Source: Lachnospiraceae bacterium (GTDB lineage: Bacteria > Bacillota > Clostridia > Lachnospirales > Lachnospiraceae). Taken from it: DNA of 39,724 nt. Shown in pieces: positions 23,809 to 39,644 of this stretch. The notes under the pieces are model-generated. The model saw only the letters and a list, made by a program, of their open reading frames with translations, was not told the origin of the DNA and made no database searches. Location: NCBI GenBank assembly GCA_016288495.1, contig JAEEZH010000058.1:1-39724 (forward strand). The letters are read 5' to 3'. A program made the translations under genes and the position numbers. How positions within the stretch are numbered: position 1 is the first letter of the stretch; the number at the start of each line of letters is the position of its first letter.

Positions 23809-25614
23809 ATGGACAGCAGATTTATCCGAAATTTTTGCATAGTGGCCCATATCGACCATGGGAAATCCACTCTGGCCGACAGGATAATAGAAGGTACGGG
23901 ACTTCTGACCGACAGGGAAATGCAGGCCCAGGTACTGGACAATATGGAGCTGGAGCGGGAGCGGGGGATCACCATCAAGTCCCAGGCCGTGAGGACCATC
24001 TATAAGGCAAAGGACGGAAACGAGTATATATTTAATCTGATCGACACCCCCGGACATGTGGATTTCAACTATGAGGTGAGCAGATCCCTGGCCGCCTGCG
24101 ACGGAGCCATCCTGGTGGTGGACGCAGCCCAGGGGATCGAGGCCCAGACCCTGGCAAACGTGTATCTGGCCCTGGATCATGATCTGGACGTATTCCCGGT
24201 GATAAACAAGATAGATCTGCCTTCGGCGGACCCCCAGAGGGTAAAGGACGAGATAGAGGATGTCATAGGCATAGAGGCTCAGGACGCTCCCCTTATCTCT
24301 GCCAAAAACGGCATAGGTATAGATGAGGTGCTGGAGGCCATAGTCCATAAGATCCCTGCCCCGGTGGGGGATACGGACAAGCCCCTGAAGGCACTGATCT
24401 TTGATTCCATATACGACCCCTACAAGGGGGTGATCGTGTTCTTCAGGATCATGGACGGAAGCGTGCGCAAGGGCAGCCACGTGAGGATGATGGCCACGGG
24501 CGCCGAGTTTGAAGTGGTGGAGACCGGTTATTTCGGGGCCGGACAGTTCATTCCCTGTGATGAACTGACTGCAGGCATGGTGGGGTATCTTACCGCCAGT
24601 ATCAAAAACGTCAAGGATACCCGGGTGGGCGATACCATAACGGATGCCGATAACCCCTGTGACGAAGCCATGCCGGGATATAAAAAGGTCCAGCCCATGG
24701 TATATTGCGGGCTGTATCCCGCGGACGGCGCAAAATATCCGGATCTTCGGGATGCGCTGGAAAAGCTTCAGCTCAACGATGCTTCTCTTTTCTATGAACC
24801 CGAGACCTCGGTGGCTCTGGGCTTTGGTTTCAGATGCGGTTTTCTGGGACTGCTGCATCTGGAGATCATACAGGAGAGACTGGAGAGAGAGTATAATCTG
24901 GATCTGGTGACTACCGCTCCCGGAGTGGTTTACCGTATACACAAGACTGACGGGGAGATGATAGAACTGACCAATCCTTCCAATCTGCCGGACCCTTCGG
25001 AGATAGAATATATGGAGGAACCCGTGGTGGATGCCCAGATCATGGTGACCACCGAATTTGTGGGTCCCATCATGCAGCTGTGCCAGGAAAGACGCGGCGT
25101 CAGCAAGGGAATGGAATATATAGAACAGACCAGGGTCATGCTGTCTTACCAGCTTCCCCTCAACGAGATAATATATGACTTTTTTGACGCACTCAAGTCA
25201 CGGTCCAGAGGTTATGCTTCCTTTGAATATGAGCTTAAAGGCTATGAGACCGCCAAGCTGGTAAAACTTGATATCCTCATCAACAGGGAGGAGATAGATG
25301 CCCTTTCCTTTATCGTACATGCGGACAGTGCCTACGAAAGAGGCAGGAAAATGTGCGAAAAGCTTAAGGAGGAGATCCCCAGACATCTGTTTGAGATCCC
25401 TATCCAGGCAGCCATCGGTTCAAAGATAATCGCCAGGGAAACCGTAAAGGCCATGAGGAAGGATGTGCTGGCAAAGTGCTACGGCGGAGATATCACGCGA
25501 AAGAAGAAGCTTCTGGAAAAACAGAAGGAAGGAAAAAAGCGCATGAGGCAGATAGGAAATGTGGAGATCCCCCAGAAAGCGTTCATGTCCGTGCTGAAAC
25601 TTGATGAATCATAG
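23809..25614 (+). CDS. lepA: elongation factor 4 (LepA)
   Basis: EF-4 is a translational GTPase that binds ribosomes, back-translocates in vitro and affects initiation in vivo. The N-terminal G-domain shows [44 protein letters not shown] and [10 protein letters not shown]. The LepA-specific C-terminal domain shows [20 protein letters not shown] and [14 protein letters not shown]. The length of 601 is standard. AGGAG lies 12 bases before the ATG, a rather long spacing. The upstream region is shared with the divergent rpsT promoter. A + strand promoter was not convincingly identified. Confidence 0.98.
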
Positions 25615-25681: not shown

Positions 25682-26779
25682 ATGCTTTTTGTAAAAAACG
25701 CCGACCTTAAGGTGGGCATGAGACTTGCAAAACCCATATACAATAAAAAGGGAGTCCTTTTGTATGACCGTAACTCAAAGCTTACGGATCAGGGTATAGA
25801 TTCCGTTAAGAATTTCGGTCTCATAGGTCTGTATATCCTGGAACCGGCGGAGCCGGTACCTCCCATGAGTGAGGATGATATGGAATTTGAGCGGTTCCAG
25901 ACTGTGGCGGTATTCCAGATCAAGGATGAACTGGAATCCATCGTGAACTTGGGCAAGGCTCCCAAGATACAGATGTTTGTGGCGGAGATGGTAAAGCGCT
26001 ACGGCAGGCTCACGAAAAAGATAAATTTTGTACAGAATCTGAGGAGCAACGATGATTACGTGTTCAAACATTCATTGAACACGTCCATGCTCTGCGCCAT
26101 GATGGCACACGTTCTCAATGTACGTCTGGATGGGCAGAGTGAAGCGGTGATAGCGGGAGTGGTCCACGATGTGGGTAAGCTGAGAGCTCCCAAAGAACTG
26201 AAGGAAAAGGGAACTGCCCTTAATGATGAGGAGCAGGCCCAGATGGACAGATACGAGCGCGAAGGCTCTTCGCTGGTGGAGGAGGTATTTACTTCCCAGC
26301 CCAACATAAAACGTATAGTGGTCCAGTCTAATAAGGCCCTCAATGATTTTAAGCGCGGGATCCTGCCGGCCAACGGCCTGGACAAGATAGTGATCGGAGC
26401 CAGGATCCTTATGGTGGCCGAGACCTTTGATACCATGACGGCCATGAACGACTACAGAGAGCCTTCTTCCGAGATAAGCGCCCTTAAATTCCTTAAGGCC
26501 AATCCGGGGGTTTTTGACCCCAAGGTGGTTTCCGCTCTGGTGGACAGCATCAATTTCCTGACCAACGGCTGTACCATAGAGCTGACCAACGGAGAGAAGG
26601 GTCTGGTGATAGCGGCAAATGACGACGATGTGTTAAAGCCCATGGTGCTTCAGTTCTCCAACAATACCATCATCGATCTGGCCAGATCCAGCCTGGGACT
26701 GGAGATAAAGGATGTCATGAAGACCATGGACAACAGATGCGTGGTGGATAAGGAGATGCTCAAGAGCATTAATGTATAG
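25682..26779 (+). CDS. degenerate HD-GYP-like protein
   Basis: The 365-residue protein (from the ATG at 25682, eight bases after AAAAGGAG; the track's TTG 25661 overlaps the SD) starts with the N-terminal DUF3391-like pattern KNADLKVGMRLAKPIYNKKG seen in many HD-GYP proteins. The HD core keeps His130, His162-Asp163 and VVHDVGK, then LKEKGTALNDEE. The third metal His, normally in a THP segment, is Tyr191. The HHE-GxGYP segment is absent, replaced by VVQSNKALNDFKRG. The terminal ADxFDAMT is AETFDTMT. It is therefore unlikely to hydrolyse c-di-GMP and may be a binding or scaffold protein. It lies five bases upstream of the PilT-like gene. Confidence 0.8.
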   Translation: MLFVKNADLKVGMRLAKPIYNKKGVLLYDRNSKLTDQGIDSVKNFGLIGLYILEPAEPVPPMSEDDMEFERFQTVAVFQIKDELESIVNLGKAPKIQMFVAEMVKRYGRLTKKINFVQNLRSNDDYVFKHSLNTSMLCAMMAHVLNVRLDGQSEAVIAGVVHDVGKLRAPKELKEKGTALNDEEQAQMDRYEREGSSLVEEVFTSQPNIKRIVVQSNKALNDFKRGILPANGLDKIVIGARILMVAETFDTMTAMNDYREPSSEISALKFLKANPGVFDPKVVSALVDSINFLTNGCTIELTNGEKGLVIAANDDDVLKPMVLQFSNNTIIDLARSSLGLEIKDVMKTMDNRCVVDKEMLKSINV

Positions 26780-26784
26780 CCGAT

Positions 26785-27867
26785 ATGCTTGATCTGAACG
26801 CACTTCTGAAATATGCCGGGGAAAACGGCGCTTCCGATATACATATCACGGTGGGGGTGTCCCCGCTGATCAGGGTTTCCGGAAAACTGCGCCCCACGCC
26901 GTTCCAGAGGATGACGACAGCCGATACGCTGGAGGTCTTTCTCGGTATAGTTTCCCCTATTCAGAGAGACAAATTCGAAAACGCCGGTGAGATCGACCTG
27001 TCGGTATCCATTCCGGGAGCCGGCAGATACAGGGTTAACGCCTACAAGCAAAGGGGCAGCATCACGCTGGCTCTTCGTCTGGTGGAGATGGAGATACCCG
27101 ATCCCCAGATGCTGATGATACCCGATGTGGTGCTGGATCTGTGCAATAAACACAGAGGACTCATCATTATCTCGGGACCTTCAGGCAGCGGCAAGAGCAC
27201 GCTCATGGCCTCCATGATCGACCGTATCAACGAGGTCCGTCAGGCCTGTATAGTCACTTTGGAAGATCCCATCGAATACCTTCACAGCCATAAGAATTCA
27301 ATAGTGTCACAGCGGGAGATAGGGCTGGATACAGCTTCCTATCTGACGGGCCTTGGCGCTGCATTGAGGGAAGACGCAGATGTGATCAGCCTGAGTACCC
27401 TGCCGGATGAGGAAGTGGCCACCAGGACCTTCAGGGCCGCCCAGACAGGACGACTGATATTTTCGGCCATGTATACCACCGGCATTGTGGAGACCATAGA
27501 TTCCATCATAGCGCTTTTTCCCGAATATCAGCAGGAGATGGCGCGTAACCAGCTGGCATCATGCCTTCGGGCTGTGGTCACCAGACAGCTGTGCGACGGC
27601 GTAGGCGAGGGTGAACGTATCCCCGCTTACGGTATCATGCTGAACAACAAAAAGATAGCTTCATATATCCGTTCCGGTCAGACCCTGAAGATAATGGATG
27701 TGGTCAGAGAAAGCTCGGACCAGGGTATGATAAGCATGGACGATTCCCTTTTTGACCTTTGCAGGAGAGGTCTTATCTCATCTGCCACGACCCTCGCCCT
27801 GTCCATAGACCAGGAGAGCATGGAAGAACGCCTGGGAGAGAGCAGGAACGAGGCTTTGAATCAGTAA
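26785..27867 (+). CDS. PilT-like secretion ATPase lacking catalytic residues
   Basis: The 360-residue protein matches PilT retraction ATPases along its length: N-terminal SDIHITVGVSPLIRVSGKL, Walker A GPSGSGKST (131-139) and the Asp-box TLEDPIEYLHSH. However the Walker B segment, usually DVILVGEMRD with the catalytic Glu, reads DVISLSTLPD (Thr205 at the Glu position). The His-box, usually ATLHT, reads SAMYT. Both changes predict loss of ATP hydrolysis while nucleotide binding may persist. No pilin, PilB, PilC or prepilin peptidase gene is in the window. The ATG has no clear SD and lies five bases after the HD-protein stop, so translation is probably coupled. Confidence 0.82.
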   Translation: MLDLNALLKYAGENGASDIHITVGVSPLIRVSGKLRPTPFQRMTTADTLEVFLGIVSPIQRDKFENAGEIDLSVSIPGAGRYRVNAYKQRGSITLALRLVEMEIPDPQMLMIPDVVLDLCNKHRGLIIISGPSGSGKSTLMASMIDRINEVRQACIVTLEDPIEYLHSHKNSIVSQREIGLDTASYLTGLGAALREDADVISLSTLPDEEVATRTFRAAQTGRLIFSAMYTTGIVETIDSIIALFPEYQQEMARNQLASCLRAVVTRQLCDGVGEGERIPAYGIMLNNKKIASYIRSGQTLKIMDVVRESSDQGMISMDDSLFDLCRRGLISSATTLALSIDQESMEERLGESRNEALNQ

Positions 27868-27965: not shown

Positions 27966-27994
27966 CATAGAACACCAAAAAAGGGGGAATGATC

Positions 27995-28360
27995 TTGAAG
28001 ATAATAGACTACAGAGATCCGAAGCCTATCTATGAACAGATCGCAGACTATTACAGACAGATGATACTTTGTGGCGTGCTCCAAAACGATGAGCAGTTGC
28101 CGTCTGTAAGAACTCTGGCCATTGAACTGGGCACCAATCCCAACACGGTTCAAAAAGCTTTCGCTTTGCTGGAAAGCGACGGTTATATTTACGCTGTAAA
28201 GGGAAGAGGAAACTTTGTCAAGGCCGGGGATGACCTGACGCAGAAGAAGAGTCTGGAACTGGTGGAAAAACTGAAGCGGCTGTTTGAAGAGGCAAGGAGC
28301 ATTCATCTTAATGTGGATGAATTGATCAAAAAAGCAAAGGAGGGCATGAAAAATGATTGA
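27995..28360 (+). CDS. GntR family regulator, YtrA type
   Basis: A short GntR-type regulator (121 residues) consisting of a winged-helix domain and a small helical tail, as in the YtrA subfamily. DPKPIYEQIADYYRQMI, LPSVRTLAIELGTNPNTVQKA (recognition helix) and LESDGYIYAVKGRGNFV are the signature blocks. The track starts at ATG 27989, but AAGGGGG (27981-27987) nearly abuts it. TTG at 27995 is seven bases from the SD and gives MKIIDYRDPKP, the usual family start. The gene overlaps the ABC ATPase gene by eight bases and likely represses this operon. Confidence 0.9.
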   Translation: MKIIDYRDPKPIYEQIADYYRQMILCGVLQNDEQLPSVRTLAIELGTNPNTVQKAFALLESDGYIYAVKGRGNFVKAGDDLTQKKSLELVEKLKRLFEEARSIHLNVDELIKKAKEGMKND

Positions 28361-29261
28361 GATAAGCGGCCTGAACAAATCCTTTGAAGGCGGGATAAAG
28401 GCGGTGAACGATCTGAATCTGACCATAGCCGACAATCATGTATTCGGCCTCATCGGTACCAACGGAGCCGGGAAGAGCACACTGATGCGTATGATGTCAG
28501 GCGTACTCAAGGCGGACAGCGGAGATATAAAGGTGGATTCGGAGCAGGTTTATGAGAATCCGCAGGTGAAAAAGCAGATATTCTTTATCCCCGATGAAGC
28601 TTTCTTTTTCCAGTGGGCCGATGCGGATACCATGAAGAATTATTATGCCGGTATATATGAGGGCTTTGACACAGCGCGTTTTGATAAGCTGTTGGATGAG
28701 TTTAACCTGAAAAAAGGCAATAAGGTATATACCTATTCCAAGGGTATGAAAAAACAGCTTTCCCTGATCCTGGGGCTGTGCGCAAAGACCAGATATCTGT
28801 ACTGCGACGAGACCTTTGACGGTCTGGATCCGGTGATGAGGCAGGCGGCCAAGGCCCTGCTGGCAAAGGAGATAGATGAGAGGGATTTCACTCCGGTCAT
28901 CACCAGTCATAACCTGAGAGAACTGGAGGATATCTGCGAACATGTGGGACTCCTTCATCAGGGCGGAGTGCTTCTGTCAAAGGATATAGACGATATGAAG
29001 CTCAACCTGCAGAAGGTACAGTGCGTGTTTGCGGATGAGGGCAGGCGTGAAGAGTTTGAAAAGGCGCTTGATATCATGCTCCATGAGGAGAGAGGACGTC
29101 TGCATACCTATACCCTCCGGGGGGACAGGGAAACGGTAGAGGCTTTGTTTGCAAAAGAGGAAATGATATTCTTTGAGAATTTAAGTCTGACTCTCGAGGA
29201 AATATTTATAAGTGAAACGGAGGTGGCAGGATATGATGTCAGAAAACTCATCACAGGCTGA
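28353..29261 (+). CDS. ABC transporter ATP-binding protein
   Basis: The 302-residue ATPase has Walker A GTNGAGKST, the Q-loop region FIPDEAFFFQWAD, signature YSKGMKKQLSLILGL in place of LSGGQ, Walker B LYCDETFDGLD and a switch His in ITSHNL. The altered signature and the Thr after the catalytic Glu recur in ATPases encoded beside YtrA-type regulators. The partner permease is encoded next, overlapping by 29 bases. The substrate is unknown; related operons respond to cell-envelope antibiotics or export peptides. Confidence 0.9.
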   Translation: MIEISGLNKSFEGGIKAVNDLNLTIADNHVFGLIGTNGAGKSTLMRMMSGVLKADSGDIKVDSEQVYENPQVKKQIFFIPDEAFFFQWADADTMKNYYAGIYEGFDTARFDKLLDEFNLKKGNKVYTYSKGMKKQLSLILGLCAKTRYLYCDETFDGLDPVMRQAAKALLAKEIDERDFTPVITSHNLRELEDICEHVGLLHQGGVLLSKDIDDMKLNLQKVQCVFADEGRREEFEKALDIMLHEERGRLHTYTLRGDRETVEALFAKEEMIFFENLSLTLEEIFISETEVAGYDVRKLITG

Positions 29262-31404
29262 GACAAAGAAGGTGAAAGTTCCGGATGGCATGAGCCAGAG
29301 AGCCCTTTTTGCACGCAGAAAATGGGTGGTGGTCATAACTGCCATTTCATGCCTGCTGATCTATCCGGTTGCCTCTGTCATAGCATTTATCAGTACCATA
29401 AATCTGAATATGTTCGACACCTCGGTTCCCATGGGAGTGAGGCTGGTCAATGTATTCAACACGCTGATAAGCGGGAACCTGGTGGGATTCGCCGCAGCGG
29501 TCCTTCTGGCCGTGCTGACCGCGACCCAGGGCTTTGCCTATCTTTTTAACAGAGCTACGGTGGATTTTTATGAATCATCGCCCCATACGAAAAAGGAGAG
29601 ATTTACGGCGATATATGTAAACGGTCTGCTGATATTCTATATCTCGATAACAGTCAGCTTCATATTATGCTTTCTGTCCGCCGGCGTGATGGGGGCGATG
29701 AACAGCGCAATGATCCCCCAGGGTATCATACAGCTTCTGGAACTGATGCTCCTGTATTCGGCAGTATATTCCATCAGCACAGTCGCTTCCATGCTTTCGG
29801 GCAATCTGTTGGTGTCCATGCTGCTCAACGGTTTTTTGCTCCTGGTTGAGGACGTGTTCTATATGGCAGTGGATGCCTGCGGGGTTACCTATTACGCCAC
29901 CTGGTTTAATGGTAACGGTGAAGACCGTCTGCACTTTTTCTCACCCATGGCCTGCTATATCACTAACCATATGCCCGAATTCTACAGCGGCACGGAGCCC
30001 TTTGGCATGACGCTTGTCAGAAGTCATATTGAAAAGAATCTGGGTTTTGATATAAAACTCCTGCTGTTTTTCATAATATTTACAGTGGTTGCGTTCCTTC
30101 TGTATAAAAAGCGTCCCATGGAGTCGGCAGGCAGGCCTTTTGTCTACGTCAGGGTCGGATATGCCGTCAAGATGATCATCGCGGTCTTTACGGCACTGTT
30201 CACAGCCATTATGATGGAGAATGTGACAGGCGGCGATGTCCCGGTGGTCTTCGCGGGAGTCATCATAAGCTCGGCTCTGATCTGTGTGATGATGCAGGCA
30301 CTGCTGATAGACGGAAATGCAAAAAAGAAGCTGTATCACATCGCAATAAGTTCGGCTGTTATAATCGCCGTGGTGATAGTGTGCCGCTTTGATCTGACAG
30401 GCTATGAGAATTATATCCCGTCCGAGAACAGCATAGAAAGCTGCGGACTGATGAGTTATGATAACAATTGTCTGCCCTACTATGAAAAAAACGATTACGG
30501 CGTGTATGAGGAGATATACGACGGAGAAAAAAGATTAAATCTTATGATGCTGAAAAACATCAGCTATGTGGTGGAACTTGCACGTACGGGACAGCGGCTT
30601 AAGAGCGAGTATGACAGGACCTACAACGGATTTGCCAGGGCTTATATGCTGGATCTGGAAGAGGATGAGATAAACGGTCCCAACGGATGGAATTATGTGG
30701 TGGCTTACAATCTTAAAAACGGGAAGACGGTTTATCGTGTGATATACATTCCCGTGGATACGGATACGGCCCTGCTTGACAGGATCACCACTTCCCCGGA
30801 ATACAGAAGCACGGTCTTCCAGTGTGAAGAGGATTTCGTGAATGTGGTAGCGTCGGCAGGTGAACATCATAAGCTCAGCTTTTACAACGGCTGCAGGGAG
30901 AGCAAAATGATAGACGGAACCTACATAAGAGACTTTATGGAAGCATATAAAAAGGATATAGACGAAAAGTATTCCTATTCTGTATCGAGATTCCATCTGT
31001 CCAAGGGGACCGTCCAGTTTACCGGGGATGATGATTACCAGGATTATATATCCGGCGATATCTTTTATCTGAATTATCCGGTATACGATGACTACGAAAA
31101 TACAGTCGCTTTTCTGAAGCAGCACGGGATATATATGGATGAACAGGTCCCTTTGGATGTGATCGACAGCATCAGGGTGACGCAGACGGATGAGGATGGT
31201 AACAGCGAAGTGACGGAGTACGAGTCAGAGGAAGAGATTGAAAAGCTCATGCCGAAGTTGTATACTGATTTCGGTATGTGGGAATGGCAGGAGCCGAATC
31301 TGGTGGACTACGACAGGCAGGCTGAGATCTTTACCAAAAAAATGGTCTATGAGGATGAATATTTCGGCAGCGAAAATTATACCTTGTATTTCCTGAACGA
31401 ATAA
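29233..31404 (+). CDS. ABC transporter permease with large C-terminal domain
   Basis: The start is ATG 29233, nine bases after GGAGG (29219-29223). The track's GTG at 29212 precedes the SD. The 723-residue product has about eight membrane segments in residues ~30-400, arranged like ABC-2/YtrF-type permeases. A polar, probably extracytoplasmic domain of ~330 residues follows (from around ENYIPSENSIESCG). The C-terminal domain is rich in acidic and Tyr residues and resembles a domain of unknown function seen on similar Lachnospiraceae permeases; the family was not verified. It is the third gene of the gntR operon. Confidence 0.8.
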   Translation: MMSENSSQAETKKVKVPDGMSQRALFARRKWVVVITAISCLLIYPVASVIAFISTINLNMFDTSVPMGVRLVNVFNTLISGNLVGFAAAVLLAVLTATQGFAYLFNRATVDFYESSPHTKKERFTAIYVNGLLIFYISITVSFILCFLSAGVMGAMNSAMIPQGIIQLLELMLLYSAVYSISTVASMLSGNLLVSMLLNGFLLLVEDVFYMAVDACGVTYYATWFNGNGEDRLHFFSPMACYITNHMPEFYSGTEPFGMTLVRSHIEKNLGFDIKLLLFFIIFTVVAFLLYKKRPMESAGRPFVYVRVGYAVKMIIAVFTALFTAIMMENVTGGDVPVVFAGVIISSALICVMMQALLIDGNAKKKLYHIAISSAVIIAVVIVCRFDLTGYENYIPSENSIESCGLMSYDNNCLPYYEKNDYGVYEEIYDGEKRLNLMMLKNISYVVELARTGQRLKSEYDRTYNGFARAYMLDLEEDEINGPNGWNYVVAYNLKNGKTVYRVIYIPVDTDTALLDRITTSPEYRSTVFQCEEDFVNVVASAGEHHKLSFYNGCRESKMIDGTYIRDFMEAYKKDIDEKYSYSVSRFHLSKGTVQFTGDDDYQDYISGDIFYLNYPVYDDYENTVAFLKQHGIYMDEQVPLDVIDSIRVTQTDEDGNSEVTEYESEEEIEKLMPKLYTDFGMWEWQEPNLVDYDRQAEIFTKKMVYEDEYFGSENYTLYFLNE

Positions 31405-32584: not shown

Positions 32585-32776
32585 ATTATTCTTAACATAT
32601 CGAGCGGATCAAAATCATTTCATATCCGTTCGCAGGATTTCATGGCGACGCGAATTTCATATCGTCGCAGGATCCCATTTTTACATATTTTAGCGGCACC
32701 GTTTTTTGTGTGTTTGTAGCGGTGTCACCGGAAAACAAAACTGCACTTTGCGCATGGCGCGGAAATGGAGGTGTGG
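32585..32776. other. rlmN-comM intergenic region with small hairpins
   Basis: Together with 32455-32529 this is the longest gene-free stretch (about 320 bases). It holds three consecutive short stem-loops: CGAGCGGAT/ATCCGTTCG, GCGACG/CGTCGC and GGCACC/GGTGTC. The first two are part of an imperfect direct repeat. No convincing promoter hexamer pair was found. GGAGG at 32767-32771 is the comM SD. Confidence 0.5.
32617..32678 (+). repeat. imperfect direct repeat upstream of comM
   Basis: Two copies, 32617-32643 and 32654-32678, share ATTTCATATC, then TCGCAGGAT, then CAT, differing by small substitutions and a two-base gap. Each copy's right end forms the 3' arm of a hairpin. A regulatory role is unproven. 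Confidence 0.6.
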
Positions 32777-34348
32777 ATGTATTTTTGCATCAATTCCTTC
32801 GCGTTGAGCGGCCTGTCGGTGCTGCCGGTATCCGTGGAGGCTGACATATCGGACGGCCTGCCGGTCATGGATCTGGTGGGCTATCTGGGCTCGGAAGTGA
32901 AGGAAGCAAGGGAAAGGGTGAGGACTGCATTAAAAAACAGCGGCTTTACCATTCCCGTCAAAAGGATCACCATCAATGTCTCTCCGGCGAGTGTCAGAAA
33001 GCAGGGGACTGCCTTTGACCTGCCCATCGCTTTATCCATGATGGTGTGCATGGACCTGATAGACAGGAATGCTCTGAGGGACTGCTGTGTGATGGGCGAG
33101 CTTAGCCTGAACGGTGATATCCAGGGGATAACCGGCGTGCTGCCCCGGGTCCTCAAGGCGAAGGAAATGGGCTACAGCGCCTGTTTTGTACCTGTTCAAA
33201 ACGCCGCAGAAGGGGCAATGGTGGACGGGATCTCGGTTTACGGCGTGGACTCGCTGCTGGGAATGTATGCTCATTTTTCAGGCGAAGCAGTGATCGAACC
33301 CGTAAAGGCTGATCTTGACCTGATATTGAAAAATGCCGTGGATAAAACAGATGAGGATTTTTCGGATATCAGGGGTCAGCCGCTGATCAAAAGATGTATG
33401 AAGATCGCGGCAGCGGGTCTTCACAACCTGCTTATGATAGGACCGCCGGGAGCAGGTAAGACAATGGCTGCCAGCCGTGTGGCGGGGATACTTCCGCCGC
33501 TTTCCGGAGAGGAATGTCTGGAACTGACCAAGATCTATTCCGTGGCAGGTCTTTTGCCGGAATGCGGGATGATCCTGAAAAGACCGGTGGTGAGTCCCCA
33601 TCATACCTGCACGCCCCAGGCTCTGGCAGGGGGTGGGAGCATTCCCAGACCCGGGGCCGTCTCCCTGGCCCATAAGGCGGTACTCTTTCTGGATGAATTG
33701 CCCGAGTTTAAAAAGGAGGCGCTTGAAATACTGCGGCAGCCTCTGGAGGAAAAGAAGGTACATATCGCCAGGGCAAGTGCCAACTATACCTATCCGGCGG
33801 ATTTTCTTCTGATCGCAGCCATGAACCCCTGCAGATGCGGTTATTATCCCGATATGACAAGATGCAGCTGCAGCGCCCGTGACGTGAAAAATTATATATC
33901 CCGGATCAGCGGGCCTTTGATGGACAGGATTGATCTGTGCATTGAGGTGGGAGAGATAAGCTACGATGAGCTGTCGGGGACTAAAGCGGATGAGCTGCAG
34001 GAGAATGGGGAAAGCCTCGTGGAGGAGAGCAGCGCGGATATACTGCGGGATGTGATGGCGGCAAGGGAAAGGCAGGAGTTTCGCTTTTCGAAAGAGGATA
34101 TCAGCGTGAATTCCGGGATGAGCTCTTCCATGGTGATGAAGTACTGCCAGCTGGGAAGAAGGGAAAACCTGCTTCTCAAGGAGGCATTTAAACGGCTGAA
34201 CATGTCGGCGAGGGCTTATCACAGGACCCTCAAGGTGGCAAGGACCATAGCGGATCTGGAAGATTCGGACCGGATAAGCGAGAAGCATCTGTATGAAGCC
34301 ATATCCATGAAGCTCCCGGATAAGACCTACGGAAATATGGGCGGATAA
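32777..34348 (+). CDS. comM: YifB/ComM family Mg chelatase-like AAA+ ATPase
   Basis: ComM is a hexameric helicase that promotes branch migration during natural transformation in Gram-negative bacteria. In Firmicutes the family is YifB and less studied. The 523-residue product begins with a Lon-like ChlI domain (VEADISDGLPVMDLVGY, VKEARERVRTALKNSGF, FDLPIALSMM). The AAA+ domain follows with Walker A MIGPPGAGKT, Walker B VLFLDELPEF and AAMNPCRCGYYPD, then the C-terminal domain LNMSARAYHRTLKVARTIADL. Start: the track's ATG 32765 overlaps the SD; GGAGG (32767-32771) lies five bases before ATG 32777. It is followed by dprA, the usual neighbour. Confidence 0.93.
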   Translation: MYFCINSFALSGLSVLPVSVEADISDGLPVMDLVGYLGSEVKEARERVRTALKNSGFTIPVKRITINVSPASVRKQGTAFDLPIALSMMVCMDLIDRNALRDCCVMGELSLNGDIQGITGVLPRVLKAKEMGYSACFVPVQNAAEGAMVDGISVYGVDSLLGMYAHFSGEAVIEPVKADLDLILKNAVDKTDEDFSDIRGQPLIKRCMKIAAAGLHNLLMIGPPGAGKTMAASRVAGILPPLSGEECLELTKIYSVAGLLPECGMILKRPVVSPHHTCTPQALAGGGSIPRPGAVSLAHKAVLFLDELPEFKKEALEILRQPLEEKKVHIARASANYTYPADFLLIAAMNPCRCGYYPDMTRCSCSARDVKNYISRISGPLMDRIDLCIEVGEISYDELSGTKADELQENGESLVEESSADILRDVMAARERQEFRFSKEDISVNSGMSSSMVMKYCQLGRRENLLLKEAFKRLNMSARAYHRTLKVARTIADLEDSDRISEKHLYEAISMKLPDKTYGNMGG

Positions 34349-34388: not shown

Positions 34389-35288
34389 ATGAGTGATGAT
34401 GAAAAAAACGGATGCAGATATGTCTGCAGACTGGATAAGGATTATCCCTACAGGCTGGAACGGCTGGCAAGGCCCCCTGCGGGGTTCTATGTGAGAGGAC
34501 GACTGCCGGATGAGAACGTGCCGACTGTGGCCATAATAGGCTCCAGGCTGTGTTCCCAGTATGGGCGGCTGGCGGCCGAGGAATTCGGGAGGACTCTTGC
34601 CCTTCACGGGGTTCAGGTGGTGAGCGGCCTGGCCAGGGGTATAGACGGTATCGCACAGAATGCGGCCTGTGATGCGGGAGGCAGCTCCTTCGGCATCCTG
34701 GGCTGCGGGGTGAACGTGGTTTACCCTTCCGAGAATAAAAGAATATATGAGAAGGTTCTGGAAAAGGGAGGACTGATCTCGCTGTTTGAACCGGACGCAA
34801 GGCCACAGAAGGCTTATTTTGCGGAAAGGAACAGCCTGATATCCGCCCTGTCGGACCTGCTTCTGGTGGTGGAAGCCAAGGAAAAGAGCGGAACCCAGAT
34901 CACCGTCGGGTGCGCGCTGGAGCAGGGCAGGGATATCTATGCGGTTCCCGGCAGGATCAACGATATCTGTTCGGCAGGCTGCAATGAACTGATAGCCCAG
35001 GGGGCGGGGATAGCCACAAGCCCTGAAAGCGTGCTGAACGCCCTGGGGATATATCCGGAATATGAATTCAGACAGGCAGTACCAGGCGGGGGAAGACCTA
35101 AGCTGGAGCGTCTGGAAAGGAAGGTTTATGAGCAGCTGGATCTGTACGCCATGCCCATGGACAAAATAGCCGTGCTGACACGGATCCCCGTGCCTGAGCT
35201 TTCCGCCATTTTGTTCCATCTGATGGTAAAGGGATATGTGAGAGAAGAGGGCAGGAATTATTATGCCCGGGTGCAAGATAATCTGTAG
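34389..35288 (+). CDS. dprA: DNA-processing protein DprA (short form)
   Basis: DprA loads RecA on incoming single-stranded DNA during transformation. The Rossmann core is clear: VAIIGSRLCSQYGRLAAEEF, VVSGLARGIDGIAQNAA, GCGVNVVYPSENKRIY, YFAERNSLISALSDLLLVVEA and GTQITVGCALEQGRDIYAVPG. A C-terminal winged-helix (DKIAVLTRIPVPELSAILFHLM) follows. At 299 residues it lacks the N-terminal SAM/HhH domain (~60 residues) common in Firmicute DprA. No upstream in-frame ATG extends it before the comM stop. The SD is a weak GGTGAGG five bases upstream. Confidence 0.93.
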   Translation: MSDDEKNGCRYVCRLDKDYPYRLERLARPPAGFYVRGRLPDENVPTVAIIGSRLCSQYGRLAAEEFGRTLALHGVQVVSGLARGIDGIAQNAACDAGGSSFGILGCGVNVVYPSENKRIYEKVLEKGGLISLFEPDARPQKAYFAERNSLISALSDLLLVVEAKEKSGTQITVGCALEQGRDIYAVPGRINDICSAGCNELIAQGAGIATSPESVLNALGIYPEYEFRQAVPGGGRPKLERLERKVYEQLDLYAMPMDKIAVLTRIPVPELSAILFHLMVKGYVREEGRNYYARVQDNL

Positions 35289-35306
35289 AAAAACAGGAGG
35301 GTGGAA

Positions 35307-38300
35307 ATGAAAAAAGATATAAAAGAATCAAATAAGATAATTGCATTTATTGTAGCTTTGAGCCTGCTGCCGGTACAGCTTTGTCCGGCTCTGACGGTCA
35401 GTGCGGCACAGGAAGAGATATGTGTTCAGGAAGAAACCGAATATGCTTCGGAGGAAACTGTATGTGTTCCGGAGGAAACCGGATATGCTTCGGAGGAAGC
35501 TGTATGTGTTCCGGAGGAAGCCGGAACTGAGAAGGAGGGTAAAGATGTATGCGTATCGGAGGAAACCGGGACCGGAGAGGAAAAGCTGTCTGCATCGGAT
35601 GAACAGGAGCAGGAAGATGACAGGCCGTACGATTGCATGGAAAACTGTGACAGCAGGGAAGAGGCATCCGTGAGCGGGAATGAAACTGAAGAAAAGAAGG
35701 AGGAGGTTTACGGAAGGAATGAAAATAAGGAATTATCCCCGGAATATAAGACCATTTCCGTAAATCTTGTAAGAAGGCAGGTGGCGCCGCTTACGGATTT
35801 CTTTCCCCAGGAGCTGCTGGGAGAACTGGATTTTTCCGTGGAAAAGGTGGCACGGCTTGTCAGTGTCAAAAACGGGAGCATAAGGGCAAAGAAAGCAGGA
35901 CGGACCTCCTGGGAGGTCATGCACGGTGAAGAAATATATCTGATCTGTCTGAATATTTACGAACCTGTATTTGAGAGATCAAAGTATACAGTGCTCAAGG
36001 GAGAGAGCATAAAATGCGGATTTGAACATGGGGATTTCAAGCCTGTATATTCCATTCCCGCAAAGTACGCGGACCGGGCCATGGTGGATGAAAACGGAGT
36101 GGTCACCGGACTTTCCAGGGGAAGAGCTGTTTTGTTATCCACGATAAACGGTGTACAGTACAAGACTAAGATAAGGGTAAGGGATCCCTATCTGTCCGTG
36201 ACAAAGGGCTGTGTGGCAAAAGGGGGAAAGCTCCGGATAAAGCTGAAGGATTCGGATAAGTCGGCATCCTGGAAGACTTCGGATGAGAATATAGCCTTGG
36301 TGGTAAAGGGGAGGATAAGGGGACTTAAAAAAGGTCAGTGCGTAATAACCTGTACCTATATGGACAGGGAGTATAACTGCGAAGTCCAGGTGGATGAGGC
36401 CGCCCTCACAACGGGAGAACTGGTGCTTAAATGCGGTGAGACAAAGCGTGTGGGAATTTACGGCATTTCCGACCCGGCATATGAGGAACACTGGTTTACA
36501 AGGAGCAAAAGCGGTGCCTTCACTTTGACCGACAACGGGGCAGTGACCGGAGTGAAAAAGGGCAGCGGCAGTATCTTTGTGCTGAGAGGTAAAAAACGTT
36601 ACAAGGTGAAGATAAAGGTGGTGGATGAGAAGGCAACGGACAATTCCTCCGATGAAAACTATGAGCTGATAAAGGTGATATGTGATGAAGATGCGAAATG
36701 TCATGATATCGTGGAAAAGGTATATGCCAATGAAGCCAATTCCATGTATGTGTTAAGGCAGGAACTGGGGCACGATCCCGAGGAAAGCTCTTTTGTACCT
36801 TCCACTTGTGTGGATCCGGCCTACAGTATCATGAAGTGCAGAAGATGCGGGCAGGAGAGCAGGGAGGATAAAAAGCTGACGGACTATCCTCTTAAGCAGC
36901 ATTCCCTGACAAACATCTCGGAAGGAAAGGGAAAAGGGGCCGGAAGCATATGGAGGTGTTCCGTTTGCGGGGGTGATTTTGTGCTGACAAGCGGCGGAGA
37001 TTATGTGAGACTGGACGATCCTCAGAAGGACAGTTCTTCCTCCTCGGGGAAAGACCATGATTCCTCCTCGGGGAAGGATGATGGTTCCTCCTCCGGCAAA
37101 GACCATGATTCATCTTCCGGAAAGGATGATGGTTCTTCCTCGGGGAAAGACCATGATTCATCTTCCGGAAAGGATGATGGTTCCTCCTCCGGCAAAGACC
37201 ATGATTCATCTTCCGGAAAGGATGATGGTTCCTCTTCGGGAAAGGACCATGGTTCCTCCTCCGGCAAAGACCATGATTCCTCCTCGGGAAAAGATCATGA
37301 TTCCTCCTCGGGAAAGGATGATGGTTCCTCCTCGGGAAAGGATCAGGGTTCCTCTTCCGAAAAAACATACGATCACTCCATCAGTTATGAGAATACCCTC
37401 AGCGCAAACAATCTGAACCCTTCGGGCTATGACGAAAAAGACGGTGTGATATATCTGACTCCTCTGTACCGGAGGGGCTATGAGTTCCTGGGGTGGTTTG
37501 ATGAAGACGGAAACGAGATCGACAGGATCTATACTTCCGATAAGAGAAACCGTGTGATAACAGCCAGATGGGAGCTGATCGAGTACAGGATAACTTATGA
37601 AGGCGATCCTGAAAAATGTGAGATGTCAAAGGACAATCCCACAACATATACGGTGCTGGATGATATCGAGCTGATAAATCCCGTTCCCCTGGAGGGGTAT
37701 GAGTTTTCCGGATGGACAGGGGGCGGTCTGACAGGGGAGACCATGAGAGTGGTGATACCTGCGGGGAGTGTGGGGAGCAGAACCTACAGCGCCCATTTTG
37801 TATACAAAAAATACAGGATAGACTATGTGATGAACGGAGGGGAAAATGATCCGGACAATCCTTCATATTATACGATGGACGATGAGATCGTCTTCAGGGA
37901 GCCCTTCAGGCAGTATTATTCCTTTGACGGGTTTTACACCTCCGGCGTGCTCAGTGCCGGTTCGCTGCTTGAAAAAATAGAGAAGGGAAGCACCGGGGAT
38001 CTGCGTCTTTACGCAAAGTGGAATAAAAATACCTTCATATACGAAGCTGAGGATGTGGATGCGGTGTACAATGCGGGGGGACATTCGGCGGATATAAGCT
38101 GCGATACTCCCGGGACGACCATAAGCTACAGGGATTCAAAGGATGAGACCTGGTCTTTCACAAAGCCGGTGTATATTGATGCAGGGGAGTATGTCACATA
38201 TTACAGGCTGGAAAAGGACAACTATGAGACTTTGACCGGGCATGTGAGCGTGACTGTGGATAAGGCACCGGGACAGGTCAGCGAGACTTCGGCGATAAAC

Positions 38301-39644
38301 AGCGTATACGACGGCAGTGCCAAAAAGCTGATGAATACGGCGAGCAGCAGCACGGGAAAGGTGCTGTACGGAATGGGAAATACATCCATCGGGAATTATT
38401 ATGAATACATTCCCACGGCCGTGGATGCGGGTAGTTATTATGTCTGGTATTACAGCGTGGGAGACAGGAATCATTATGATTCGGATAAGAAGTGTGTCAT
38501 CGCGAAGATAGATAAGGCAGAGGGCAGGGTAAAGACCGCCCCCACCGCCAAAAGCCTGACATACAACGGAGTATCCCAGACCCTGATCAATTCCGGCAGC
38601 GCCGAGGGCGGCACCATGCAGTACAGGCTGGGAAGTGCCTCATCCTTCGCTTCCTACCTGCCCACTGCAACGGACGCCGGAGTCTACACGGTGTATTACT
38701 ATTGCTCCGGGGATGCAAATCATTACGATTCTTCGATCTCTTCCGTAAATATAACAATAGCCAAAAAGAACATGAGCCTGGCAGTCACAAACGGCAGCTT
38801 CGGTTATACCGGTTCGTCAGGTACAGGAGGAGCAAAGGTGGTGGTAAATGAACCCGGCTCCGGCTATACCCTGACCTACGGAACCACCTTGGGGGTATAT
38901 GATAAAACCTCCATGCCTTCATTTTCGGCTGTGGGTACCCATACGGTATATTACAGGGTGGAGGCTGCCAACTATAATGTGGCCACCGGCAGCTTTACCA
39001 TCACGGTGGATAAAGGGACCGGCTCCTGTACGGCGCCCTCTGCCAGATCCCTTACCTATTCGGGAGCGGCCCAGTCCCTGGTAAACGCCGGGAGCAGTTC
39101 CACCGGGACCATGTATTACAGCCTGAAAGCCGACAGCGGCTTTTCCACCGGGATCCCCACGGCTGTAAACGCGGGCAGCTATACAGTGTATTACTATTCA
39201 AAAGGAAACTCCAATTACCATGATACGTCGCTCAGGAGCGTGAAGGTGACCATAGCAAAGGCGTCACTGAACATCAGCTACTCGGCCACTTCGTTTTATA
39301 AGACGGGATATCCCATTTATCCTGACATCAAGGTTTCCTCCTCTGCCAAACTGTCAGGAGACGAAAAGGTCTGCGTCTATATCAAGAATCCCAAGACCGG
39401 AGGCTGGTATACCTTTAAAGGGTCGGATGTCATCAATCCCGGATACAGCTCAAGCCTGCCCTTCACCTTTGTGCTGAAAAAGTCGAACTCATCCCATCTG
39501 ACGGAATACTATAACGTGGACGCCGGCACCTATTCCATGGATCTGAAGTCGGCGGTCCTGAACGGAGGGTACGGAGGAACCGACAGCGGCAATTTCAATG
39601 TGGTGACCACCACCTGTACATACACCATAGTGAACTACGGTTGA
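35307..39644 (+). CDS. large secreted multidomain repeat protein (Big-like, InlB-like, MBG-like)
   Basis: Start ATG 35307 lies six bases after AGGAGG (the track's GTG abuts the SD). The 1445-residue product has a signal peptide (IIAFIVALSLLPVQLCPALT, likely cut after VSA). A Glu/Cys-rich 14-residue repeat follows (~42-69), then bacterial Ig-like (Big2-type) modules (~150-450) with VVTGLSRGRAVLL and AVTGVKKGSGSIFV. A four-cysteine CxxC module (~501-556) and 14 copies of a DHDSSSGK-type octapeptide (575-686) come next. InlB/Flg_new-type repeats (~712-905, EFLGWFDEDGNE) and about five ~80-residue MBG-like repeats ending DAGxYTVYY...ITVDK complete it. There is no LPXTG or C-terminal anchor, so surface attachment is unclear. 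It lies 18 bases after dprA. Confidence 0.88.
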   Translation: MKKDIKESNKIIAFIVALSLLPVQLCPALTVSAAQEEICVQEETEYASEETVCVPEETGYASEEAVCVPEEAGTEKEGKDVCVSEETGTGEEKLSASDEQEQEDDRPYDCMENCDSREEASVSGNETEEKKEEVYGRNENKELSPEYKTISVNLVRRQVAPLTDFFPQELLGELDFSVEKVARLVSVKNGSIRAKKAGRTSWEVMHGEEIYLICLNIYEPVFERSKYTVLKGESIKCGFEHGDFKPVYSIPAKYADRAMVDENGVVTGLSRGRAVLLSTINGVQYKTKIRVRDPYLSVTKGCVAKGGKLRIKLKDSDKSASWKTSDENIALVVKGRIRGLKKGQCVITCTYMDREYNCEVQVDEAALTTGELVLKCGETKRVGIYGISDPAYEEHWFTRSKSGAFTLTDNGAVTGVKKGSGSIFVLRGKKRYKVKIKVVDEKATDNSSDENYELIKVICDEDAKCHDIVEKVYANEANSMYVLRQELGHDPEESSFVPSTCVDPAYSIMKCRRCGQESREDKKLTDYPLKQHSLTNISEGKGKGAGSIWRCSVCGGDFVLTSGGDYVRLDDPQKDSSSSSGKDHDSSSGKDDGSSSGKDHDSSSGKDDGSSSGKDHDSSSGKDDGSSSGKDHDSSSGKDDGSSSGKDHGSSSGKDHDSSSGKDHDSSSGKDDGSSSGKDQGSSSEKTYDHSISYENTLSANNLNPSGYDEKDGVIYLTPLYRRGYEFLGWFDEDGNEIDRIYTSDKRNRVITARWELIEYRITYEGDPEKCEMSKDNPTTYTVLDDIELINPVPLEGYEFSGWTGGGLTGETMRVVIPAGSVGSRTYSAHFVYKKYRIDYVMNGGENDPDNPSYYTMDDEIVFREPFRQYYSFDGFYTSGVLSAGSLLEKIEKGSTGDLRLYAKWNKNTFIYEAEDVDAVYNAGGHSADISCDTPGTTISYRDSKDETWSFTKPVYIDAGEYVTYYRLEKDNYETLTGHVSVTVDKAPGQVSETSAINSVYDGSAKKLMNTASSSTGKVLYGMGNTSIGNYYEYIPTAVDAGSYYVWYYSVGDRNHYDSDKKCVIAKIDKAEGRVKTAPTAKSLTYNGVSQTLINSGSAEGGTMQYRLGSASSFASYLPTATDAGVYTVYYYCSGDANHYDSSISSVNITIAKKNMSLAVTNGSFGYTGSSGTGGAKVVVNEPGSGYTLTYGTTLGVYDKTSMPSFSAVGTHTVYYRVEAANYNVATGSFTITVDKGTGSCTAPSARSLTYSGAAQSLVNAGSSSTGTMYYSLKADSGFSTGIPTAVNAGSYTVYYYSKGNSNYHDTSLRSVKVTIAKASLNISYSATSFYKTGYPIYPDIKVSSSAKLSGDEKVCVYIKNPKTGGWYTFKGSDVINPGYSSSLPFTFVLKKSNSSHLTEYYNVDAGTYSMDLKSAVLNGGYGGTDSGNFNVVTTTCTYTIVNYG
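35430..35513 (+). repeat. tandem 42-bp repeat near the 5' end of the secreted protein gene
   Basis: Two adjacent 42-base units (35430-35471 and 35472-35513) encode EETxYASEExVCVP and differ at only a few bases. Degenerate copies continue to about 35570. The repeat codes a Glu-rich segment with one Cys per unit just after the signal peptide. Confidence 0.8.
37029..37364 (+). repeat. 24-bp tandem repeat array (14 units) encoding an Asp/Ser-rich linker
   Basis: Fourteen 24-base units encode octapeptides of the DHDSSSGK / DDGSSSGK type. The two types alternate through most of the array, giving a 48-base higher-order unit. Identical 48-mers recur, indicating recent duplication. The in-frame length means copy-number change would preserve the reading frame and vary linker length. 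Confidence 0.92.

Follow-up and report, generated by a model that had tools for sequence, protein, structure and literature searches.

A PilT-family protein with degenerate catalytic motifs is conserved at one chromosomal site in two genera of Lachnospiraceae

Introduction

Among kinases and some AAA+ proteins, members without catalytic activity are well known. The locus described here raises the question of whether a PilT-family ATPase that has lost residues of its catalytic machinery is maintained as a non-hydrolysing protein or is simply decaying, and, if maintained, in what capacity. The gene is found in a contig of a Lachnospiraceae bacterium (assembly GCA_016288495.1, contig JAEEZH010000058.1), which was analysed over its whole stretch of 39,724 nucleotides, hereafter the window. 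This contig belongs to a 2.66 Mb MAG that is 82% complete, and the nearest named records, likewise Lachnospiraceae MAGs, come from goat omasum and sheep rumen.

In PilT-like ATPases the catalytic glutamate sits directly after an atypical Walker B motif, the Asp-box glutamate coordinates magnesium and the His box contacts the gamma-phosphate (McCallum et al. 2017, PMC5424180). The closed interface of PilT is formed by H230-T221, P271-D32 and R240, the open interface by L269-T221, G180-Q59 and R296, and both E204A and H229A substitutions in P. aeruginosa PilT abolish twitching (McCallum et al. 2019, PMC6858323), in line with a sequence-only reading of the window that had described the altered residues as needed for hydrolysis and inter-subunit sensing. 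Likewise, a natural R206S variant beside Walker B impairs the PilT of V. cholerae (Adams et al. 2019, PMC6762196).

Results

The gene encodes a full-length protein of 360 aa, with neither stop nor frameshift. Its features are given below, with counts from a census of 35 proteins sharing the degenerate motifs (hereafter pseudo-PilTs, the window protein included) against 39 canonical Lachnospiraceae PilTs.

26785..27867, + strand: putative PilT-family pseudo-ATPase, 360 aa (TIGR01420, AlphaFold2 model, PDB matches, 34 orthologues with the same losses)
27175..27198, + strand: Walker A GPSGSGKS, residues 131-138, intact (K137 in 31/35, Arg in the other 4)
27256..27279, + strand: Asp box TLEDPIEY, residues 158-165, intact (E160 34/35, E164 35/35, D161 30/35)
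27379..27408, + strand: degenerate Walker B and catalytic-Glu stretch DVISLSTLPD, residues 199-208 (E205 in 4/35 against 39/39 canonical relatives)
27445..27477, + strand: degenerate His box TGRLIFSAMYT, residues 221-231, with H223R and H230Y (H223 replaced by R/K in 35/35, H230 by Y/F/S/L in 35/35)
27583..27585, + strand: R267, fixed in the pseudo-PilT clade (R 35/35), Gln in canonical PilT (39/39)

The window protein is a member of the PilT/PilU family by descent, matching TIGR01420 with 350.5 bits over residues 4-343 against a curated cut-off of 319.1 bits, and its orthologues score 345-377 bits. A single-chain AlphaFold2 model (mean pLDDT 92.1) adopts the PilT fold, its best PDB matches all being PilT or PilU proteins (TM 0.85-0.93), with the PilU structure 9n32 among the close ones. 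Alignment with Geobacter metallireducens PilT (6OJX) displayed no numbering shift through the ATPase core, and published residue numbers can therefore be applied directly. On this numbering the catalytic glutamate (E205T), the adjoining arginine (R207P) and both His-box histidines (H223R and H230Y) are substituted, while the Walker A lysine K137 and the Asp-box glutamates E160 and E164 are present. The sequence-only reading had described a full-length, unshifted PilT-family gene with an intact Walker A and Asp box and an altered catalytic Glu and His box, and all of this is borne out to the letter; further changes that it had not listed are Q267R, R240S, P271D, H223R itself and the conversion of AIRNLIRE into KIASYIRS.

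The same protein is encoded at the same locus throughout the window's genus (four genomes) and in a second genus of Lachnospiraceae, where 31 genomes have it; the second genus was found when one of its members came up in a profile search of 397 genomes of the family, after which 48 of its genomes were searched. The gene is thus full length and open in at least 35 gut-type species (35 assemblies). An oddity limited to the window is ruled out by these searches, and sequencing error or local decay was rejected on the basis of the same losses across the 35 assemblies. No further genus with this form was seen in the 397 family and 392 order genomes, where the best 30 loci per search were read residue by residue and weak cases may hide. 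Within the window's genus the copies share 59-85% identity with the window protein, and their Walker B and His-box stretches read LSTLPD/AMYT in the window, LSAMPD/NMYT in G052, ISALSD/SMYT in G201 and VGDISD/SVYA in G200. The next relatives beyond the genus (42-47% identity) are canonical, with GEMRD and TLHT. Many Lachnospiraceae encode such a canonical PilT (44-47% identity) at the very chromosomal site of the pseudo-PilT, between LepA, HD, ComM and DprA, often with the same HD-GYP-like gene upstream as in the window.

A tree in which the Walker B and His-box columns had been removed grouped 21 representative pseudo-PilTs from both genera as one clade among canonical PilTs (SH-aLRT 100), and separate origins in the two genera are hence unsupported. 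A PilT encoded at the comM locus of another genus (genome G047, contig C4, L027 / L093, 8822-9916), reading GELKD, TLYT and GPAGGGKS, was considered as a sister intermediate and rejected, since it joins the clade only when the motif columns are used and falls among canonical proteins without them. Its genome also encodes a canonical PilT linked to pilB, and we take the comM-locus protein as a partial loss of independent origin; accordingly the parsimony count for H230 is two. Within the clade, the reconstructed history has H230 lost once at the base and the glutamate then lost up to four times, so that the His-box loss, which is universal, came first and the catalytic glutamate is the variable loss. 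Degeneration took place once in the common ancestor and the product was then kept across 35 species, which refutes simple decay of the window copy. The earlier reading had held that canonical orthologues would mark this copy as decaying; the distant orthologues at the locus are indeed canonical, yet the losses are clade-wide.

The census separates two sets of residues. In the pseudo-PilTs both histidines are always lost, H230 giving way to Y in 22, F in nine, S in three and L in one; R207 is kept in 4/35, R240 in 1/35 and P271 in 7/35, and the AIRNLIRE motif is degraded across the clade. In contrast, the close canonical relatives keep E205, H223 and R240 in 39/39 and H230 in 38/39. Among 83 canonical family relatives, a set defined by keeping H223 and E205, E205 is present in all and H230 in all but one, a contrast with the 35 pseudo-PilTs that chance is far from explaining. 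The arginine sensors R81 and R83 are retained in every pseudo-PilT, as are the open-interface residues L269 and G180 (both 35/35), with R296 of the open interface in 32/35, and while the Walker B stretch varies across the clade, TG(R/K) and R267 are constant. The pseudo-PilTs have thus preserved the nucleotide pocket and the open interface, but not the machinery by which ATP is hydrolysed and the interface closes. As for the orthologue check proposed in the sequence-only reading, the loss of both histidines proved invariant across the 35, whereas that of the catalytic glutamate is incomplete. Besides this clade, the only other PilT form among the loci read is one PilU-like extra copy (L227, 2124-3101, G417:C30), which carries TGR with intact GE and IHT and adjoins another canonical PilT; a crude rule first counted it as pseudo, and it was left out of the census.

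These residues bear on whether the protein is still an ATPase, another acidic residue together with the new Arg/Lys at 223 and 267 forming a different catalytic arrangement. In favour of this, the protein retains D199, Walker A, the Asp box and a pair of arginine sensors, and the newly acquired basic residues have become fixed within or close to the His-box and interface motifs. Nevertheless, position 205 is occupied by R, Q, T, G, M and others with no acidic substitute fixed in the clade, both His-box residues are gone, and P. aeruginosa PilT loses its function on substitution E204A or H229A (PMC6858323). We regard continued catalysis of this kind as highly improbable.

Within the window's genus, dN/dS values (NG86) range from 0.04 to 0.20, with dS near saturation and saturated for distant pairs; for pairs of the second genus they range from 0.02 to 0.17, some unsaturated (e.g. 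0.026 at dS 0.50), and canonical PilT copies of that genus display 0.01-0.05. The pseudo-PilT is therefore under purifying selection, somewhat weaker than that acting on active copies, and with open frames in 35 species and dN/dS of 0.02-0.2 it bears none of the marks of a pseudogene (frameshift, stop, neutral dN/dS). The second genus includes three genomes (G079, G439 and G404) in which the EAL-HD gene pair and ComM-DprA remain and the pseudo-PilT is missing between them, which indicates that the protein is dispensable there and that the pair does not need it.

Such clean absences would suit a slow decay in which a second PilT took over, motor function was lost and residual constraint alone persists; the canonical copies elsewhere in these genomes, the free drift of the Walker B stretch and the loss of the Walker A lysine in four of 35 orthologues point the same way. 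Against it, the protein is full length in all 35 species, its dN/dS does not greatly exceed the values for canonical copies, and the gene persists where no other PilT exists; moreover, the newly fixed R267 and R/K223 (each 35/35) are unexpected under decay. We consider slow decay improbable. As to the proposal that the gene is a maintained non-hydrolysing form and not a pseudogene, its maintenance is supported by the shared losses in two genera at the same site and by purifying selection; the absence of hydrolysis is what the substituted residues would predict.

The site itself has a conserved order, LepA - HemW - [EAL] - [HD] - PilT - ComM - DprA - TopA, in which HemW and TopA were named from sequence rather than by domain scan. 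In the window its markers are as follows.

23809..25614, + strand: LepA, upstream locus marker (Pfam; synteny)
25682..26779, + strand: HD-GYP-like protein (HD_5, Pfam 1.9e-17), with the GYP and second-half metal motifs lost (orthologue alignment)
32765..34348, + strand: ComM-type Mg-chelatase-like protein, downstream marker, displaced by an insertion (Pfam; synteny)
34389..35288, + strand: DprA, downstream marker (Pfam DNA_processg_A; synteny)

The insertion (27989-31404) lies between PilT and RlmN/ComM and encodes a GntR-family regulator, an ABC ATPase and a membrane protein of 730 aa (DUF6449); the block is not found at the corresponding place in the relatives read. Downstream of DprA, positions 35301-39644 encode a protein of 1447 aa that carries List_Bact (Flg_new) repeats and is probably located at the cell surface.

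In the window the HD-GYP-like gene ends 5 nt before the start of the pseudo-PilT, a spacing that suggests the two are probably co-transcribed. It lies directly upstream in all four genomes of the genus, and at each of the 17 pseudo-PilT loci read in their surroundings either an HD-GYP-like or an EAL gene stands directly upstream on the same strand. The HD-GYP-like protein keeps HD and lacks the GYP half in every genus examined, including beside canonical PilT, and the idea that its degeneration belonged to the same event as the PilT loss was consequently rejected; the neighbourhood of the two genes in other genera likewise means that their link predates the loss of activity. This family (window 25682-26779; L037, L038, L064, L067, L069, L071 and L074, the HD itself being deleted in the last) is associated with PilT loci and probably represents a relative of HD-GYP proteins that is not an enzyme.

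An EAL-protein gene is found upstream at 13 of 13 second-genus loci read in context and in G200, and the EAL protein beside the pseudo-PilT has intact EAL catalytic motifs and a degenerate GGDEF domain. It is a large PAS-GGDEF-EAL protein (L141 5102-8536, L142, L145-L152, L088 4549-7992; GGDEF reading RYEAD), which in some genomes is replaced by a 575-aa short form, the HD gene then being missing. The window locus lacks the EAL gene, of which no orthologue turned up in three of the four genomes of the genus; a conserved EAL partner in the window's genome was also sought and not found, only paralogues of about 36% identity being present.

Pilus genes were inventoried by genome searches. PilB is present in three genomes of the window's genus (G000, G052 and G201), PilC-type proteins are found in the genus, and all four genomes have a second PilT, with canonical motifs where readable (in G000 it is cut by a contig end). 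The search for other pil genes suggested by the sequence-only reading thus returned both PilB and a canonical PilT in the window's own genome. None of the inventoried genomes of the second genus yielded a PilB, and in five of them (G419, G420, G423, G435 and G438) only a Tad-type ATPase and the pseudo-PilT were found, with neither PilB nor canonical PilT. G420 is 99% complete in three contigs and has only weak Tad-type T2SSF matches, and the completeness of the other four is 65-90%. In these five genomes the pseudo-PilT is kept uncoupled from a type IVa pilus ATPase and from canonical PilT, and the company of PilB and PilC seen in the window's genome is lacking.

A small operon of the second genus combines pilin-like ORFs with genes for a canonical PilT-type ATPase and a PilC-type protein (L153 of G381:C13, 8306-12127; L152, 8892-13871; L156; L158), and in several genomes it is convergent with and directly beside the pseudo-PilT. 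No PilB was found among the genomes inventoried, several of which are 98-99% complete, and the operon is possibly a pilus system whose only motor is PilT-like.

A role as a pilus regulator, in which an inactive PilT joins or competes with canonical PilT at PilC on a type IVa pilus, either as a brake or as a PilU-like helper with reversed roles, would accord with the PilB and second PilT of the window's genus and with the adjacency of the canonical operon in part of the second. In V. cholerae, PilT and PilU still co-operate if PilT has no ATPase activity, and mutation of Walker B leads to hyperpiliation (PMC6821130, PMC6762196). This role is at odds with the five genomes described above and with the position of the gene in the window's genus, outside any pil operon and with no pilT neighbour; moreover, degradation has affected AIRNLIRE, R240 and P271, all of importance to retraction or to the closing of the interface. 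On balance a pilus regulator appears rather unlikely.

Discussion

That the pseudo-PilT is maintained and is not a motor is well supported. To account for it, we somewhat favour an ATP-binding, non-cycling pseudo-motor derived from PilT, which would stay nucleotide-bound and serve a c-di-GMP-type regulatory unit as a static ring or scaffold. The protein descends from a canonical PilT of the kind encoded between LepA/HemW and ComM/DprA in many Lachnospiraceae. It has kept the PilT fold and, most likely, ATP binding and contact with ring neighbours via the arginine sensors and open-interface residues, and it has lost the water-activating glutamate and the histidine for the gamma-phosphate, along with several closed-interface residues. 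With these losses the protein should not complete the open-close hydrolysis cycle and should be unable to drive pilus retraction. Purifying selection retains it, probably expressed together with the HD-GYP-like protein and, in most relatives, with the EAL protein, also in genomes that have neither PilB nor canonical PilT. Motor parts lost in a protein kept intact in at least 35 species, some without such a pilus, suggest that it has probably been re-used, and the likely job is a regulatory one; a signalling role is our best guess from the gene neighbourhood. The stronger form of the proposal, in which the ring has become a non-motor ATP-binding part of a c-di-GMP regulatory unit working in bacteria without a type IVa pilus, is put forward tentatively and is on the whole doubtful. 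Several observations weigh against the static pseudo-motor: four of the 35 orthologues retain the catalytic glutamate, and hydrolysis by an unusual arrangement is possible; the link to the HD gene is older than the loss of activity; the EAL-HD pair survives in some relatives that lack the pseudo-PilT; the EAL gene is not present beside the window copy; and in its own genome, with PilB and canonical PilT present, the protein could still act on a type IV pilus.

If the stronger form of the proposal is correct, no other clade of PilT/VirB11-type ATPases would have been known before to be maintained as pseudo-enzymes, as far as the literature searched shows: in the open-access literature, a search that counts as weak evidence, no report was found of a pseudo-ATPase or degenerate-Walker PilT, or of any branch of the PilT/PilB secretion-ATPase family conserved as pseudo-enzymes. 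The clade is a natural experiment in which the residues for ATP binding and ring contacts (kept) are separated from those for hydrolysis and interface closing (lost), a separation of direct relevance to the open/closed rotary model for pilus motors. Should the ring operate next to EAL and HD-GYP-like proteins in cells that lack pili, it would, moreover, illustrate a route from motor to regulator.

Among known systems, one of the closest is c-di-GMP control of pilus ATPases of the FimX/PilZ/PilB type. The likeness is an EAL-type protein encoded beside a PilT/PilB-family ATPase in most relatives, a likeness of gene neighbourhood, whereas the partner here is a PilT-type pseudo-ATPase. With the PilT retraction ATPases of G. 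metallireducens (PilT4, PDB 6OK2) and P. aeruginosa the protein shares the whole-length fold, domain order, Walker A, Asp box and arginine sensors; in contrast to these, it has lost the catalytic glutamate and the His-box histidines, its closed interface and AIRNLIRE are degraded, and it is encoded outside a pil operon and occurs in genomes without PilB. The natural R206S variant of V. cholerae MO10 PilT lost the arginine beside Walker B, where the window protein has proline, with reduced function (PMC6762196), but it is a single strain-level mutation in an otherwise identical PilT, whereas the changes described here are multi-residue and clade-wide. PilU, the PilT-dependent accessory retraction ATPase, is likewise a second PilT-like protein in a genome with canonical PilT. 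Known PilU proteins, however, keep Walker A and Walker B, and their ATPase activity matters (PMC6821130, PMC6762196), whereas the pseudo-PilT has lost the Walker B and catalytic residues, is present in five genomes without a PilT partner and, in the window's genus, has no pilT gene beside it.
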